Part shown: one piece after another, positions 4,844 to 25,726 of the stretch
Layout: every line of letters starts with the position of its first letter
How positions within the stretch are numbered: the stretch's first letter is position 1
Notes under the pieces: model-generated
Databases searched by the model: none
What the model was told of the DNA's origin: nothing
Seen by the model: only the letters and a program-made list of their open reading frames with translations
Position numbers and translations under genes: made by a program
Virus record (IMG/VR): IMGVR_UViG_3300033429_000014
Coordinates: 1 to 29,539 of that record
Reading direction: 5' to 3' (one strand)
DNA length: 29,539 nucleotides
DNA from: a virus

Positions 4844-4861
4844 ATTAATTGCTATGTTGTA

Positions 4862-4890
4862 TTGATTTATACCAATATTAGCTTTATAAT
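4862..4890 (+). promoter_or_regulatory. Candidate sigma-A promoter for the tRNA-like RNA
   Basis: TTGATT at 4862-4867 and a perfect TATAAT at 4885-4890 are separated by 17 bases. A transcript would begin near 4897 and run through the palindrome and the tRNA-like sequence. In DNA this AT-rich a chance match is quite possible, so the call rests on the exact spacing and the position in the only long gap without a gene. Confidence 0.45.
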
Positions 4891-4916
4891 TACTATTGTT
4901 ACTTGCTTTATATAAG

Positions 4917-4942
4917 GTTTTAACATCGGGAAATGTTAAAAC
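4917..4942. promoter_or_regulatory. Perfect 10-bp palindrome with 6-base loop
   Basis: GTTTTAACAT at 4917-4926 and its exact reverse complement at 4933-4942 flank CGGGAA. A T-rich stretch starts only about 10 bases later, so as a terminator it would be poor. It sits about 20 bases downstream of the predicted start of transcription, so it could be an operator or the folded 5' end of the RNA. Which of these is true cannot be told from sequence. Confidence 0.5.
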
Positions 4943-4968
4943 ATCAATATTTTTGTGTAACATTTAGA

Positions 4969-5036
4969 AGGGTAATAGCTTAATCGGGAAAGTGCCAGAT
5001 TATCTGGTTATACAAGTTCGAATCTTGTTTACCCTT
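4969..5036 (+). ncRNA. tRNA-like RNA with a 3-nt anticodon loop
   Basis: The sequence folds as a cloverleaf of 67 nt plus discriminator. The acceptor stem is 7/7 (AGGGTAA with TTACCCT), and positions 8-9 are TA. The D stem is GCTT with AAGT (one G-U pair) around the canonical loop AATCGGGA. The T stem is ACAAG with CTTGT around TTCGAAT. The anticodon stem is a perfect 5 bp (CCAGA 4995-4999, TCTGG 5003-5007), but its loop is only TTA (5000-5002) instead of 7 nt. The variable region is TTAT and no CCA is encoded. It cannot decode as drawn. It may be a tRNA mimic, a decoy for an anticodon nuclease, a damaged tRNA gene or part of an attachment site. An alternative 3-bp stem with a 7-nt loop would lack U33. 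Confidence 0.7.
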
Positions 5037-5052
5037 TAGTAAGTAAAACAAT

Positions 5053-5083
5053 TTGGGCAATAGGATAAATAAAACTATATAAT
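5053..5083 (+). promoter_or_regulatory. Candidate promoter for the virion operon
   Basis: TTGGGC at 5053-5058 is followed 17 bases later by TATATA (5076-5081), which overlaps a perfect TATAAT (5078-5083) at 19 bases. Transcription would begin near 5090, just before the hairpin that precedes the first virion gene. The -35 match is weak, so this is a candidate only. Confidence 0.35.
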
Positions 5084-5094
5084 ACTCTTTTGAG

Positions 5095-5154
5095 AGGTCT
5101 TAACTTATTGGAAAATCGTTAGATAATCCTTTAGGCTTAAGACCTTATTTTTTT
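5095..5154 (+). terminator. Hairpin with T-run in the leader of the virion operon
   Basis: AGGTCTTAA (5095-5103) pairs perfectly with TTAAGACCT (5137-5145) and is followed at once by TATTTTTTT (5146-5154). The loop is long, 33 bases, and contains a smaller ATC-GTTA-GAT hairpin. The T-run ends only 3 bases before the AGGAGG of the next gene. It could end transcription of the upstream RNA, act as an attenuator, or stabilise the leader of the virion transcript. Confidence 0.6.
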
Positions 5155-5170: not shown

Positions 5171-6883
5171 ATGCCAGGTGGTGATTACGTAGAGAGTACG
5201 TGGGTTAATGGAACAACACCAGCAATTAACGCAACAAACCTTAATAACATTGAGGACAAAATAGCAGAACTTGATTCACAATTGGCAAGAAGCCAAGTAA
5301 AATCATTTAAAGAATATGCAAAATACTTTATAGATAGAAGTACAAAAGATATTGAATCATTTGAAGATTCTTCTTTATTTACTAAAGTTGGGGGAGCCGA
5401 TGACGCATTATCAAATGATTATGTTAATTCATTTTGTCATAGGTGCGGCGTAAGATCAACAGCTACAACAAGTACTGTAACATATAGAGGAATGTATAAA
5501 AACATTAGTAGTTTAGATTTATTAACATATAATAGCGGTGGTGTAGCTTCAGACCCGGTTATATTATGGATGTTTTTTATCTCAGATGTGACATATGTAA
5601 CAAAAATTACTTTAAAACTTGGTGATGATAACACAGATAATTATTCCTATGATGCAACAAGTTTATATACTGGTTGGAATATGAGACATGTAAATCAATC
5701 TAGTTTTACAACAAATGGAACCCCGGCAGGATGGGACGATATAACAACAATAAGATGCGAATGGTATTCATCGGGTGCGGCCTCAGGAGCATATATTGTT
5801 TTTGATATTGTCTATTTAGGAAGGCCAAGAATTGGTGATTTATCATCACCTCAACCATTAGTCTTGGATGATGGTAATGGAAATTGGGATATAAAAGTAT
5901 ATGAATTGTATAATGATTTTGCTTTATTCTTTGATAAAGCAGCCAATAAAATAGGTATACAAGATTGTAGTAGATTAAACTATATAAATGACCTCCATGC
6001 ATATTGTACTAAAATTAATTTTATTTGCAAGTTTGAATGGGTTGTGAAGTATGAGGATGAATTAGCAAGTATGTCCTGGATTTATGATGGTGATAATTAT
6101 ATTCAAATTTATATTGAATCGGGAGTAGCGAAACTTTATGCATATGAGGCAGCCTCAGGAACAACGTTAAGTGTAACTTTATCAGATACTTTATTGAAAG
6201 AACAAACAGTAAAAGTATACTTTGAGAAAAATGCTTTACAAGTGAGGGCAATATTTTATTTCGAGAATATGCAGCCAGCATATTTGGAATATGAAACAAC
6301 TATAACGGGTGCCGGTTGTATTTATACAGGACGTGAAACATCGACAGCTTTTAGCTTATTAACTGATATGGTTTTGGGACATCAGCAAGGTTTACAAACA
6401 ATAGAAGATAATAACCAAAATAAAATAAAAATAAAACAAATAGATGAAAGTGTAACAAGTAGTGTAACATTTCAAGATGATGACGAATTATTTCTAGATA
6501 TTGAACCTTATGCAGTTTATGAAATAGTTTTGTTAGCACACTTTAACAGTGCAAGTTCTACACCAGATATAAAAGCAACTTGGACAGTGTCGGGAGATTT
6601 AGCAATGTTAGGGATGAGAACTTTATTAGGACAATACACTACAACTACAAGTATGGTAGATAGTGGTCATATTAGGTTAACATCTTATGACAATATAGCA
6701 ATGACAATACCCTATGGTAATGATGGTACATCATCAAGAAATTCGCCTATTCATGAAAGATTTTTAATTAGGGCGGGCGCTTATGGTGGCAGACTTCAAT
6801 TCCAATGGGCGCAAAATACATCAGACGCAACAGCATCAATAATATTAGCAGGTTCTTATATAAAAGCAACAAAGTTTAATTAA
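5171..6883 (+). CDS. Receptor-binding / tail fibre protein
   Basis: The protein is 570 residues long. I chose the ATG at 5171 because AGGAGG (5158-5163) is spaced 7 bases before it; an in-frame TTG at 5153 lies in the T-run of the hairpin. The N-terminus, with WVNGTTPAINATNLNNIEDK, is typical of phage tail appendage proteins that attach to the baseplate through a short helix. The middle region is rich in beta strands and aromatic residues. It looks like two lectin-type jelly rolls, the second (about residues 240-400) resembling a laminin-G-like domain. The last 150 residues end in WAQNTSDATASIILAGSYIK, a pattern common at the tips of tail fibres. It should bind a cell-surface sugar. Its position before the terminase genes, far from the tail genes, is unusual. 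Confidence 0.75.
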   Translation: MPGGDYVESTWVNGTTPAINATNLNNIEDKIAELDSQLARSQVKSFKEYAKYFIDRSTKDIESFEDSSLFTKVGGADDALSNDYVNSFCHRCGVRSTATTSTVTYRGMYKNISSLDLLTYNSGGVASDPVILWMFFISDVTYVTKITLKLGDDNTDNYSYDATSLYTGWNMRHVNQSSFTTNGTPAGWDDITTIRCEWYSSGAASGAYIVFDIVYLGRPRIGDLSSPQPLVLDDGNGNWDIKVYELYNDFALFFDKAANKIGIQDCSRLNYINDLHAYCTKINFICKFEWVVKYEDELASMSWIYDGDNYIQIYIESGVAKLYAYEAASGTTLSVTLSDTLLKEQTVKVYFEKNALQVRAIFYFENMQPAYLEYETTITGAGCIYTGRETSTAFSLLTDMVLGHQQGLQTIEDNNQNKIKIKQIDESVTSSVTFQDDDELFLDIEPYAVYEIVLLAHFNSASSTPDIKATWTVSGDLAMLGMRTLLGQYTTTTSMVDSGHIRLTSYDNIAMTIPYGNDGTSSRNSPIHERFLIRAGAYGGRLQFQWAQNTSDATASIILAGSYIKATKFN

Positions 6884-6908
6884 AAAAAATAAAAAGGAAT
6901 GATAAGAA

Positions 6909-7373
6909 ATGCCAAAAATAAAAGATGTAAAAAGACATAAAGAATTAAAATTAGATCAATTTAAAAAAGTAGTTAGTTTATTCTTACAGGGTGTAAGGGA
7001 TTTTGGCTCTCAACGTGCGGGTGCAAGATACGCGGGAGTATCTAATAGGACAATAGTAGATTATTTAAATAAATATCCTAAATTTAAAGAAGAATATTTA
7101 GAAGCTCAGCAATATTATATAGGCACTTTAGAAGAAATTGCTTCTATGAGGTCCAAAAAATATTCAGACGGTTTATTAAATAGACAATTAGTAGCTTATG
7201 ACCCGGGACGATACGCAAAAGGACCGGAAACAGTAATACAAAACAACAATACTTATAATATAGAAGCAGGGCAAGCAATAAGAACAGCAGGGATAGCAGC
7301 AAAACAATTAAGATTAGAGAGAAAGCAAATATTAAATGTGGCGCAAATTGATCAAATGAAAAATAAAGAGTAG
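6909..7373 (+). CDS. Terminase small subunit
   Basis: The 154-residue protein directly precedes the large terminase and has a helix-turn-helix in its N-terminal third: RAGARYAGVSNRTIVDYLNK, followed by PKFKEEYLEAQ. That matches phage small terminases, which bind the packaging start site and hand DNA to the large subunit. The middle (EEIASMRSKKYSDGLLNRQL) is likely the oligomerisation region. The C-terminus is basic and helical, where contact with the large subunit is expected. An AAGGAA ribosome binding site lies about 10 bases before the ATG. Its stop codon abuts the next start. Confidence 0.8.
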   Translation: MPKIKDVKRHKELKLDQFKKVVSLFLQGVRDFGSQRAGARYAGVSNRTIVDYLNKYPKFKEEYLEAQQYYIGTLEEIASMRSKKYSDGLLNRQLVAYDPGRYAKGPETVIQNNNTYNIEAGQAIRTAGIAAKQLRLERKQILNVAQIDQMKNKE

Positions 7374-8798
7374 GTGGCAAATGTGGGAGCATTAGCGGCA
7401 AATATGAATTTAATAAAAACTTTAGCACAATATTATAATGACCCTGTAATGTTTGGAACTGACTTTTTAGGTGCTAAATACACAGATTATCAACAAGAAA
7501 TAATGTACGGTATAGCAGATTACAACAAGGTGGCATGGCGTAGTTGTCATGGAGTAGGTAAGACTTATACAGCAAGTGACATAGCTTTATGGTTTTTAAT
7601 TACTAGACACAACTCTAGGGTAATAACCACAGCTTCTTTATGGAGGCAAGTAAAGTTATTATGGAGTGAAATAAGAACAAAAGCAATAAGATTAAGACAA
7701 AATAAAATAATAAATATATATATAAATGACAACACTTATGATTTGAGATTATCGGCTACATGGTTTGCACAAGGTATGGCATCAGATGACCCGGAGAAAT
7801 TGGAGGGTCAACATGCAGAAGATATTTTATTTATAGTAGATGAAGCTAAATTGGTAAATGAAAGAACTTTTAAAAGCATCTCAGGGGCATTAACTTCAGA
7901 GGGTGCAAAGTTATTAATAATTAGCACACCAAGCGAAAATAATGAAGGCTTTTTCTATGATATTTGGAAGCAAGATTATGACTTTAAAAAGTTTCATACT
8001 TCAGCATTTGAAAGTCCAAATGTTAAAGCTAATAAAATTATAGTTCCTGCTTTGGTTACTAATGAATGGGTTAAAGAGTGTAAAAAGGATTGGGGGGAAG
8101 AGTCACCAACATATGTTACTAAAGTGTTAGGGAACTTTCCAAGCAATGAGGGGACGGAAAATAGTTTAATTGCTTATAGTTGGGTTGAAGCAGCTATAGA
8201 AAGAAGTTTAGAAAAATGTAAACCTGTAGAAATTAGTTGTGATGTTGCAAGGTTTGGAACAGATACAACAGTTATTATGAAAAGAGACGGACCAGTGGCA
8301 AGACTTATAAAGAAGATAAATAAAAGGGATACCATGGAAGTAGCAGGAGAAGTCAAAAGAGCTTATGAAGATTTACACGCTAGTTGTGCAAAGATTGATA
8401 CTATTGGCATAGGTGCGGGAGTTTATGACAGATTAAAGGAACAACAAGTAAGGGTGGTAAGTTGTAATAATAGTGAAAAACCTTCAAAACAAAATGAATC
8501 TAAATTTTATAATTTAAGATCAGAGGGTTATTGGAACTTAAGAGAGTTATTCAAAAAAGGTTTAATAGATATAGAACACAATAAATTATTAATACAGGAA
8601 CTAACAATAATAAAATATTTTATACATTCATCAGGAAAGATAATAATTGAATCTAAGGATGAAATAAAAAAACAGTTGGGAAGGTCCCCGGATTATGCAG
8701 ACTCTCTCATGTATTTGTTTTTAAATAAGGGCATAGGAAATATAAAAGATTTAACCATATATGAAAGTGACAATTATGAAGATGTTTCAAATTGGTAA
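7374..8798 (+). CDS. Terminase large subunit
   Basis: The packaging motor and headful nuclease is 474 residues long. The ATPase half has the Walker A variant SCHGVGKT at residues 57-64 (K63), Walker B ILFIVDEA at 151-158 (D156, E157) and the coupling motif STP at 184-186. The nuclease half begins around residue 285 with SCDVARFGTD, in which D290 is the first metal ligand of the RNase H-like fold, and a later acidic cluster lies in RSPDYADSLMY. The start is uncertain. GTG at 7374 abuts the small-subunit stop; GTG at 7383 has GGTGG just upstream; and ATG at residue 11 also has a possible site. The 3' end lies inside the first copy of a 58-bp duplication. Confidence 0.92.
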   Translation: MANVGALAANMNLIKTLAQYYNDPVMFGTDFLGAKYTDYQQEIMYGIADYNKVAWRSCHGVGKTYTASDIALWFLITRHNSRVITTASLWRQVKLLWSEIRTKAIRLRQNKIINIYINDNTYDLRLSATWFAQGMASDDPEKLEGQHAEDILFIVDEAKLVNERTFKSISGALTSEGAKLLIISTPSENNEGFFYDIWKQDYDFKKFHTSAFESPNVKANKIIVPALVTNEWVKECKKDWGEESPTYVTKVLGNFPSNEGTENSLIAYSWVEAAIERSLEKCKPVEISCDVARFGTDTTVIMKRDGPVARLIKKINKRDTMEVAGEVKRAYEDLHASCAKIDTIGIGAGVYDRLKEQQVRVVSCNNSEKPSKQNESKFYNLRSEGYWNLRELFKKGLIDIEHNKLLIQELTIIKYFIHSSGKIIIESKDEIKKQLGRSPDYADSLMYLFLNKGIGNIKDLTIYESDNYEDVSNW

Positions 8799-14174: not shown

Positions 14175-14552
14175 ATGGCAGGACAAAATAATATTTTAAA
14201 TGATAGCATGGTGGCGGCAGCAGATTTAAGCAGTTATCAATACCGTTTTGTAAAGATATCAGCGGCTAGAACTGTAAATATTTGTGGCAGTGGCGAAGCA
14301 ATGTATGGTATTTTACAGAATGCACCAGAGTCAGGGTATATGGCCAACATTTGTGTGTTAGGTATTTCTAATTTGGTAGCTAGTGCAGCTATTTCAGCGG
14401 GTGCAATGGTTGGAAGTGCCGCACTTGGAAAAGGAGTAGCAGTGACAACAGATGTATATGAGTATGGAGCAATTGCCAGGGAAGCAGCAACATTAGACGG
14501 TGATATTATTAGTGTTTTAGTTTGCCCAGGAGCGCCAACAATATCAGCATAA
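14175..14552 (+). CDS. Head decoration protein (DUF2190-like)
   Basis: The 125-residue protein has an alanine/glycine-rich beta-sandwich-like sequence. It begins MAGQNNILNDSMVAAADLS and continues with YRFVKISAARTVNICGSGE, YGILQNAPESG, ISAGAMVGSAALGKGVAVT and YGAIAREAATLDGDIISVL. These segments match the small decoration proteins that sit at the capsid surface in Mu-like and related heads. Its place directly before the major capsid gene is the standard one. AGGAGG lies 10 bases before the ATG. Confidence 0.82.
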   Translation: MAGQNNILNDSMVAAADLSSYQYRFVKISAARTVNICGSGEAMYGILQNAPESGYMANICVLGISNLVASAAISAGAMVGSAALGKGVAVTTDVYEYGAIAREAATLDGDIISVLVCPGAPTISA

Positions 14553-14581
14553 TATAAAAAAAGAAGAGGTGTTAAAATACA

Positions 14582-15520
14582 ATGAGTAGACCAACAAGTA
14601 CACAAGTACATACTGATGCCATAATGACAAATGTTAGTGTTAAATACAAAAATGGATTATATATTGCGGAAACAGTATTTCCAATGGTACCAGTCAAAAA
14701 GCAGTCTGATAAATATTATATATTTACAAAAGCTGATATGTTTAGAAATACAGCAAAGAAAAGAGCGCCGGGAACAGCCTCAGAAGGTCAAAGTTTTGGG
14801 TTATCTACAGATTCATATTTTTGTGAAGAAGTAGCACAACACACTTTACTTGAAGATGAAGTTAGAGATAATGCGGATAGTGTTTTGGGTCTTGAAAGTT
14901 CAAAGGCAAGTTTTGTAACTGATAAGATTTTACTTGAATTAGAAGCTAGAATAGAAACTATGCTAATGACAACAAGTAATTGGGATAATTCCACAACTTT
15001 ATCAGGTACCAATCAATGGTCAGATAAAGATAATAGCGACCCATTAACAGATTTAGAAACTGGAATTGATGCAGTTGAAGATTCAACAGGTAAAAAAGCA
15101 AATACCATTGTATTAGCTAATGATGTATGGAAAGCTTTAAAACATCACCCTGAACTTTTAGACCGTTTACCGGTTACAGGATTAAGAGTTGCAACAACTC
15201 AGCAATTGGCTAACTTACTAGAAGTAGAAAGAATTTTGATAGGTAAAGCAATGAAAAACACAGCAATTGAAGGAGCAACGGCGGCATATTCTAGAATCTG
15301 GACTAAAGATGTTTGGATTGGACATGTTGCCAAAGCACCTGCAAAAGAAACACCAACAGCGGGATATACTTTTGTTTGGAAAAGAGATGGAAAAATAAGA
15401 GGAATTAGAAGATGGAGAGAAGAAAATATTCATAGTGAAAAGATAGAAGCATTTATGAATTATGATGAAAAAATTGTAGGCTCTGATCTTGGTTATGTAA
15501 TAGAGGCTGCAATAGCATAG
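14582..15520 (+). CDS. Major capsid protein, HK97 fold
   Basis: The 312-residue protein forms the capsid shell. The N-terminal arm (STQVHTDAIMTNVSVKYKNG, then YIAETVFPMVPVKKQSDKYY) and the helix with VTDKILLELEARIETML are typical of the Mu/E-type HK97-fold capsid proteins. So is the A-domain core with ANTIVLANDVWKALKHHPEL. It has no long N-terminal delta domain, which fits the use of a separate scaffold. The ribosome binding site GAGGTG lies 9 bases before the ATG. A strong terminator follows directly, as is common after capsid genes. Confidence 0.9.
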   Translation: MSRPTSTQVHTDAIMTNVSVKYKNGLYIAETVFPMVPVKKQSDKYYIFTKADMFRNTAKKRAPGTASEGQSFGLSTDSYFCEEVAQHTLLEDEVRDNADSVLGLESSKASFVTDKILLELEARIETMLMTTSNWDNSTTLSGTNQWSDKDNSDPLTDLETGIDAVEDSTGKKANTIVLANDVWKALKHHPELLDRLPVTGLRVATTQQLANLLEVERILIGKAMKNTAIEGATAAYSRIWTKDVWIGHVAKAPAKETPTAGYTFVWKRDGKIRGIRRWREENIHSEKIEAFMNYDEKIVGSDLGYVIEAAIA

Positions 15521-15550
15521 AGGGGAAGAATTATTTCCCTATCTTTTTTT
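15521..15550 (+). terminator. Rho-independent terminator after the major capsid gene
   Basis: AGGGGAA (15521-15527) pairs with TTTCCCT (15534-15540) around a 6-base loop, with one G-T pair, and TCTTTTTTT follows at 15542-15550. It starts right after the capsid stop codon and the next gene is 15 bases past the T-run, so it is likely to be leaky and to lower downstream expression relative to the capsid gene. Confidence 0.8.
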
Positions 15551-15564
15551 GAAAGGAGAATAAA

Positions 15565-24296: not shown

Positions 24297-24830
24297 ATGA
24301 AAGAGTTAAATTTAGTAGCACAACAAATGTTAGTTAGTAATATGGGGGTTATAATGGTGTTTTTTATAGCTTTAATTATACTATTTATAGCAGTATTTAT
24401 ATATGTTATAAAAGTATCAAATGAGGTAGTAAAAGCTAAAAATATTGCTTACAATACAAAGCAGATTGTTAAAAGTATTAGAAAAGATTCAGAATATTTG
24501 CAAGAAATAATTTTAGATTTGCATAGTAAATTTTATACAGTTAAGAAAACAGATTTAAATACTTTAATAAAAGAATCTGTAAGTTTACAAGAAAGGGATA
24601 AAAAATTGGTACAACAAAATAATTTATTTAAAAAAGAAATATTCACTAAAAAAAATAAATTATATGAAAAAGATTTAAAAACAATCCCTAGTGTACACCC
24701 ACAAAAGAAACCAGAACCAATAAAGGACTTGAGGAACTTTAAAGATAGTGCCGCACATACGAAAAGAATTAAAGAAATGGGTGATATAAACAGTGATTAT
24801 ATAGTAGGATGGCAAGCGAATTTAAAATAA
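24297..24830 (+). CDS. Membrane-anchored coiled-coil protein, unknown function
   Basis: The 177-residue protein has one N-terminal membrane segment, VIMVFFIALIILFIAVFIYV (about residues 18-37). The remainder is charged and helical, likely cytoplasmic: SVSLQERDKKLVQQNNLFKK is part of a coiled coil, followed by a proline-containing basic region. AGGAG lies 11 bases before the ATG. Its place in the early operon, ahead of DNA replication genes, makes a membrane anchor for replication or an anti-host factor possible, but this is inference. Confidence 0.65.
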   Translation: MKELNLVAQQMLVSNMGVIMVFFIALIILFIAVFIYVIKVSNEVVKAKNIAYNTKQIVKSIRKDSEYLQEIILDLHSKFYTVKKTDLNTLIKESVSLQERDKKLVQQNNLFKKEIFTKKNKLYEKDLKTIPSVHPQKKPEPIKDLRNFKDSAAHTKRIKEMGDINSDYIVGWQANLK

Positions 24831-24844
24831 AAGGAAGTTATAAA

Positions 24845-25726
24845 ATGATAAAGAAAATAAATTGCCCCGCATTAATCAACTTTACATTGTATGAAAGGGA
24901 CTATATATTAAGTAAATTTAATATAGATGATAATTTAATAGGGGAAGAAGTAAAAGAAGGTTTTAGATGTTTTTTGGTCTTATTTAATAGCAAGACGTAC
25001 TTATACAACAATGAAACTCAAGAAGATGTTATAGAAAGATTCCCACATTTAAAAGCTAATATAAATAATTCTATTATTTTAGATGGGTTTTTATTTGATA
25101 AAGCGCCTGAATATGTTTATAGTATGGTTAGAATTAATGTAGACATGGCTATTAAAAGGCAGGAAAAGAAAAAAGTAAAATTCTATGCTATGGATTGTAT
25201 AAAAATAAATAATGAAAGTATAACCGATTTACCTTTATTTCAGAGGAAAGTAATTTTAAATGAAGTAGTTGCTAAAATAAACAATGAGCATATAAAGGGG
25301 GTGAAAATTTCAAAGCATAAAGAAGAGTTTTATAATAATTTAAATGCTAATAATGGAAGTGGAATGTTATATAAAGATATTAATTCCTTGTACAATGATA
25401 ACGTAAAGTATAAAAAAAGAGCTTGTAAACATATTATAAAAGCTAAAATATTAAAAATAAACAAAGAAATAAGTTCGTTAGAATACGGCTTATTAGAAAA
25501 AGGGAGAATAATAAATCATGGCCAGGCCTCAGCACGTAAAAGCACTATAGTAAAGATGCTAAAGGAGAACCCTGAGAGTTTGTTAAATAAATTTGTTACT
25601 TTACATTATCAATATGTTACTGTAAAAAATAAATTAAGGAATGCAAGAATAATTGAAATATTAGATCAGGAAACTATAATTACAAATGTGGAAGATTTAT
25701 ATTTTATTAAAAAAGGGGGTATTTGA
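24845..25726 (+). CDS. ATP-dependent DNA-ligase-fold protein with degenerate active site
   Basis: The 293-residue protein starts at ATG 24845, with GGAAG 7 bases upstream; an in-frame ATG at 24809 lies in the previous gene without a site. The two-domain ligase layout is visible. The nucleotidyltransferase domain has ERFPHLK, IILDGFLFD (79-85), KFYAMDCIKI (112-121), DLPLFQRKVILNEVV (128-142), GSGMLYKD (171-178) and IIKAK (197-201). An OB-fold domain from about 211 has KGRIINHGQ and NKLRNARIIEI. Key residues differ from KxDG, LDGE and EG-x-x-x-K. Motif I reads EEVKEGFR, with valine in the lysine position or one residue missing. Motif III ends in F82, and motif IV begins with S172. It may bind nicked DNA without sealing it. 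Remote or altered catalysis cannot be excluded. Confidence 0.75.
   Translation: MIKKINCPALINFTLYERDYILSKFNIDDNLIGEEVKEGFRCFLVLFNSKTYLYNNETQEDVIERFPHLKANINNSIILDGFLFDKAPEYVYSMVRINVDMAIKRQEKKKVKFYAMDCIKINNESITDLPLFQRKVILNEVVAKINNEHIKGVKISKHKEEFYNNLNANNGSGMLYKDINSLYNDNVKYKKRACKHIIKAKILKINKEISSLEYGLLEKGRIINHGQASARKSTIVKMLKENPESLLNKFVTLHYQYVTVKNKLRNARIIEILDQETIITNVEDLYFIKKGGI

Follow-up and report, generated by a model that had tools for sequence, protein, structure and literature searches.

The reason why phages carry tRNAs is still debated. The tRNA-like genes of murine gammaherpesvirus 68 are reportedly fused to microRNA hairpins. Only 3 of the 8 viral tRNA-like genes of this virus have a 7-nt anticodon loop (PMC4810235), and it is the nearest precedent for viral tRNA-likes without such a loop. 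For the anticodon-loop variants of mycobacteriophages, and for tRNA-Tyr against retron-Eco7, an anti-tRNase role has been proposed or shown (PMC10264068, PMC11555353). The literature searched, which leaves most subscription journals outside it, did not describe any phage tRNA whose anticodon loop has only 3 nt.

Here, we analyzed a 29,539-bp phage fragment (the window, meaning the whole stretch of DNA under analysis), whose only tRNA, at positions 4969 to 5036, has an anticodon loop of three bases. Like the tRNA-likes of murine gammaherpesvirus 68, this element is viral and lacks a 7-nt anticodon loop, although that virus is an animal virus. It also differs from the defense-evading phage tRNAs, which retain their decoding loop and serve as replacement tRNAs (PMC10264068, PMC11555353), since it cannot decode. 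With the tRNA-like domain of tmRNA it shares the lack of an anticodon; however, it has no mRNA part or tag and its D stem is fully paired. It is not a tmRNA, as RF00023 gave no match and RF00005 was the sole Rfam match in the window.

The element is a tRNA body with a three-base anticodon loop

The first-pass annotation of this DNA had described intact acceptor, D, T and anticodon stems around the loop TTA and had proposed a check with the tRNA covariance model. Both the pairing and the model bear this description out. The element matched RF00005 over its full span (model positions 1 to 71) with 56.1 bits, above the gathering cut-off of 29 (E value of 9.8e-10 in a search of all Rfam on both strands), which places it in this structural family. 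All 21 cloverleaf pairs (7 + 4 + 5 + 5) are intact: 7/7 in the acceptor stem (AGGGTAA/TTACCCT), 4/4 with one G-U in the D stem (GCTT/AAGT, loop AATCGGGA), 5/5 and all Watson-Crick in the anticodon stem (CCAGA/TCTGG), and 5/5 in the T stem (ACAAG/CTTGT, loop TTCGAAT). The variable loop is TTAT, and the tertiary residues of the elbow are present (U8, A14, A15-U48, G18, G19, U54, U55, C56 and A58). The discriminator is U73. ARAGORN did not report the element, and the computed minimum free energy of the unmodified RNA (-17.8) belongs to a fold other than the cloverleaf.

A decoding tRNA has a 7-nt anticodon loop with U33, which the loop TTA does not provide, and no redrawing of the arm as a shorter paired stem with a 7-base loop and U33 was possible. 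Because of this three-base loop and the lack of a U33 alternative, the RNA as encoded should not decode under known decoding rules. Both the covariance model and the body identify the element as a tRNA, but it lacks a defining feature of decoding tRNAs, and we filed it as a non-decoding variant outside the decoding set. It is thus a real, tRNA-derived, non-decoding element.

Table 1. Features in and around the tRNA-like gene of the window
Feature	Position	Strand	Description	Basis
Promoter-like match	4862..4890	+	TTGATT-17-TATAAT	not above chance
Perfect inverted repeat	4919..4944	.	TTTTAACAT-n-ATGTTAAAA, upstream of the tRNA-like gene	sequence, fold
tRNA-like gene	4969..5036	+	13-nt anticodon arm made of 5 bp and the loop TTA; CCA not encoded	Rfam RF00005, pairing, energies
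Shortened anticodon arm	4995..5007	+	CCAGA-TTA-TCTGG; cannot form a stem that has U33 in a 7-nt loop	sequence
Long hairpin followed by a T-run, terminator-like	5093..5154	+	just upstream of the ribosome-binding site of the next gene	fold z -3.6, 0/200 shuffles

Genomic surroundings and search for relatives

The window carries genes for both terminase subunits (small and large), a portal, a head protease, a major capsid protein and tail proteins, as well as an endolysin, a primase and a ligase-like gene. No other non-coding gap of the window is as long as the one between predicted genes that holds the tRNA-like gene (309 bp at 4844-5152). It had been proposed that a promoter upstream and a hairpin with a T-run downstream would make it a separate RNA. 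The hairpin half of this proposal held, since none of 200 shuffles equaled its folding. The promoter half did not: 3 kb contained 19 promoter-like sites compared to 20.4 in shuffles, and we rejected the match at this chance level as evidence for a separate transcript.

A small AAA_33 kinase encoded at 186-689 of the window resembles RNA-end-healing polynucleotide kinases (PHROG 505, bacterial Pnkp) and also L-seryl-tRNA(Sec) kinase. No RNA ligase partner for it was recognized within the fragment, and a link to RNA repair was rejected, the ligase at 24809-25726 resembling DNA ligase. A methyltransferase at 1380-2030 weakly matched a PHROG that bears the name tRNA methyltransferase.

No close relatives of the window were found by phage DNA search, and searches of viral contigs with its terminase, tail, portal and capsid proteins returned distant phages only, the scanned stretches of which held no tRNA. 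The exact anticodon-arm pattern of the element had no match in viral contigs, and its sequence matches in phage records were short T-arm matches only. A tRNA-like of nearly the same architecture in a 55-kb phage (L072) was likewise rejected, as no proteins were common to that phage and the window in the 38 kb compared. Unlike that of the window element, the short arm of L072 does allow a drawing with U33.

Loop-shortened tRNA-likes recur in phages

The window element is not unique, as various phages carry tRNA-likes with an intact body and a shortened loop. We assigned a tRNA-like to this class if its acceptor, D and T stems were intact and its D-to-T distance was at least 2 nt below normal; the window element belongs to it, with a distance of 22 against a normal 26-28. 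A generic scan of viral contigs for a D arm and a T arm at shortened distance, whose counts are lower bounds, gave at least 33 matches with all three stems kept, or at least 34 with the window. Pattern scans yielded at least about 33 families of such phage tRNA-likes. Loop-shortened phage tRNAs are easily overlooked, since ARAGORN either fails to report them or calls them 'tRNA-???', and in annotations they appear as 'tRNA-OTHER'.

An exhaustive scan with a D arm like that of the window yielded 59 contigs. With the window counted, four loci had a D-to-T distance of 22, which corresponds to a 5-bp stem, a 3-nt loop and a 4-nt variable loop; four had 23, three had 24 and none had less than 22. 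Most of the seven loci at 25 were normal tRNAs for which the register was shifted by one base. After grouping at 85% identity, 7 of 41 families were short. Perfect acceptor and T stems were seen in 7/7 short compared to 14/26 recognizable normal families, a difference that is only suggestive (Fisher p 0.03) since the window itself is counted among the short families.

We then compared 33 short and 33 normal phage families that passed the same minimum-pairing filter. Among the matches listed, the bodies of short and normal families did not differ in how well they were preserved: U8 was present in 32/33 short versus 33/33 normal families, the Levitt pair in 27/33 versus 29/33, a perfect acceptor stem in 25/33 of each and a perfect T stem in 31/33 of each. 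The sequences of the short arms among these matches are highly variable, and some of the arms are not perfectly paired in the stem. In several phage records, chosen for having few tRNAs, the short-arm element is the only tRNA.

The same short-arm tRNA-like (96% identical) was found in L066 (3841-3909), L213 (1060-1132) and L048 (1535-1587), with an identical short anticodon region and unrelated flanking DNA; L066 and L223 are the same phage. It looks as if this tRNA-like had moved between phages. At two further loci, L131 (12126-12192) and L135 (2563-2632), the short-arm tRNA-likes start a few bases after a TATTAT-like box, have similar upstream sequence and are followed closely by a T-rich stretch downstream of the acceptor, an arrangement that looks like transcription as stand-alone small RNAs.

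Short arms are almost absent from 101 bacterial genomes

The generic pattern was found at normal length in 89 of 101 bacterial genomes and in a short version in 2, one of these two matches lying on a contig with portal and capsid genes, i.e., a phage. Short-arm forms are thus almost absent from these 101 genomes. A genome scan for short arms with the D arm of the window gave one match, on a phage contig. However, in a control none of 398 bacterial genomes contained this D arm, not even with an arm of normal length, and we therefore did not count this result as a sign of viral specificity. Among the bacterial records, a 175-kb contig binned in a Lachnospiraceae genome (L265, CALWLS010000005.1) is a large phage with portal and capsid genes; at 5173-8576 and 14333-15562 it carries two elongation-factor-like genes and a tyrosyl-tRNA synthetase.

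A family of Streptomyces phages has kept a shortened arm

Genes labeled 'tRNA-OTHER' are carried by the Streptomyces phages Karimac, Mildred21, Daubenski, Bmoc and Enygma (Stanwilliamsviridae), which fall into two genera. Their anticodon arm consists of a 5-bp stem and an invariant 6-nt loop, AGGCCA. Six distinct sequences showed 100% pairing, with 8 doubly changed pairs in the acceptor, anticodon and T stems, and slid controls gave zero doubly changed pairs. These two-sided compensatory changes indicate that a shortened, non-standard arm has persisted through considerable divergence in at least one lineage of phages. The family thus supports the notion that phages can keep such an arm under selection. 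LilMartin, MulchMansion and Angela have orthologues with 3 additional nt, one of which is annotated as tRNA-Ala(ggc). A second 'tRNA-OTHER' of 129 nt lies near the first in Mildred21 (L178, 2134-2262).

The window element resembles this family in being a phage tRNA body with a shortened, non-standard anticodon arm. However, the family has a loop of 6 nt instead of 3 and occurs in unrelated phages with many tRNAs and a tmRNA. The window element is not a member, as its loop is TTA and it has no homologous sequence match there.

A possible decoy or a possibly recently inactivated tRNA

The ancestor of the window element was a tRNA of the ordinary kind. Its anticodon loop probably lost four bases, and UUA would be the remnant of U32 U33 NNN A37 A38 minus four adjacent bases. 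The RNA would be transcribed, trimmed by host RNase P and RNase Z and given CCA; neither of these nucleases nor the CCA-adding enzyme needs the anticodon arm. It would have been kept because its target recognizes the tRNA body and not the anticodon, and this target would most likely be a host tRNA-acting factor or a tRNA-attacking defense effector that is soaked up by the decoy. We put forward this reading, a loop-shortened tRNA descendant kept as a body decoy, tentatively and at somewhat less than an even chance. In its favor we counted the complete body with all elbow residues, the recurrence of the class in phages with bodies no less intact than normal, the one selected family, the second family whose identical short anticodon region sits in unrelated flanks, the phage records with such an element as their only tRNA, and the rarity in bacteria. 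Against it we counted that no relative conserves the element, that the clearly selected family has a 6-nt and not a 3-nt loop, that the promoter is at chance level and that deletions fit the class nearly as well, as detailed below.

We regard it as rather doubtful that a recurrent class in phages of many kinds as a whole gave up decoding (with an arm of about 13-16 nt and the body kept) and uses tRNA shape, for example as decoys against tRNA-attacking defenses, with the window RNA as its extreme member. If so, the loop of the window RNA would be the smallest possible in a hairpin. If a non-decoding class with a selected body does exist, part of the answer to why phages carry tRNAs would lie outside codon supply, and non-decoding phage tRNAs would be small RNAs with which to find tRNA-acting defense factors.

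A recent inactivation is the main alternative to the decoy. A phage tRNA would have lost four loop bases by deletion and would now be without function, with decay or discard still ahead. In the short class, anticodon-helix pairing was 4.10, far above the 3.01 of shuffles (0/5000). As a null for broken tRNAs, we simulated random deletions in normal viral tRNAs. Deletions anywhere between the D and T arms gave 3.40, and the observed value was reached in 0/3000 simulations, while deletions confined to the anticodon arm gave 3.74 and reached it in 130/3000. With arm-confined deletions, 10.3 fully paired anticodon stems would be expected versus the 11 seen. Since these deletions fit nearly as well, retained stems are no strong evidence of selection in any single case, and we rejected the argument that a paired anticodon stem proves selection. 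The first-pass annotation had suggested selection for tRNA shape on the grounds that a decayed tRNA would lose stem pairs as well, and had named candidate roles such as a nuclease decoy or a synthetase trap. The reasoning from stem pairs proved weak; what stands of the suggestion is that phages can keep such arms, as seen from the compensatory changes of the 'tRNA-OTHER' genes and the body-intact families.

Several further observations fit a recent inactivation. The TTA remnant is what a simple 4-nt loss from U-U-NNN-A-A would leave, loop-only deletions also reproduce the pairing of the class nearly as well, and the variable short arms with their imperfect stems point the same way. Moreover, the short tRNA-like L146 is 3 nt shorter than ordinary Bacillus phage tRNAs and 85-87% identical to them. 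On the other hand, every cloverleaf pair of the window element is intact, perfect acceptor and T stems were more frequent in the short than in the normal families of the exhaustive scan, and Streptomyces phages have an element of a related kind on which selection acts. A recent inactivation is thus a serious possibility, if short of probable, and function in the window phage and recent inactivation stand at about even odds.

The tRNA body could instead serve as a processing signal, with the anticodon arm dispensable, as in tRNA punctuation. The acceptor/T domain is the part recognized by RNase P and RNase Z, and their cut might separate transcripts at the boundary of the upstream genes and the terminase/structural operon. 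The position of the element fits, as its non-coding gap is the longest, coincides with a gene-block boundary and has a strong hairpin next to the element; in L066/L223, only 12 bp separate the tRNA-like from the large terminase gene downstream of it. However, the terminator-like hairpin directly after the window element would end the transcript anyway, neighboring genes differ among phages, and the D arm and the 15-48 pair are kept though less critical for cutting. We consider a processing signal improbable.

Decoding via an unusual arm, such as a 3-bp stem with the 7-nt loop GATTATC and the anticodon UUA, is geometrically possible, and for the short forms L040, L072 and L145 a drawing that places U33 in a 7-nt loop exists. 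It is very unlikely for the window element, whose redrawn arm has no U33 and a pyrimidine at 37 and is 4.1 kcal/mol less stable than the 5-bp/3-nt arm (cloverleaf energies of -11.7 and -15.8 kcal/mol, respectively). Moreover, UUA would read the ochre stop, and of the 34 genes predicted in the window, 23 end with this codon. Finally, a loss of the four bases through an assembly or sequencing error, conceivable for a single metagenome contig of which the searches found no second copy, is hardly credible, as the site has no homopolymer and the same kind of arm occurs in independent phages, including the cultured and separately sequenced Streptomyces phages.
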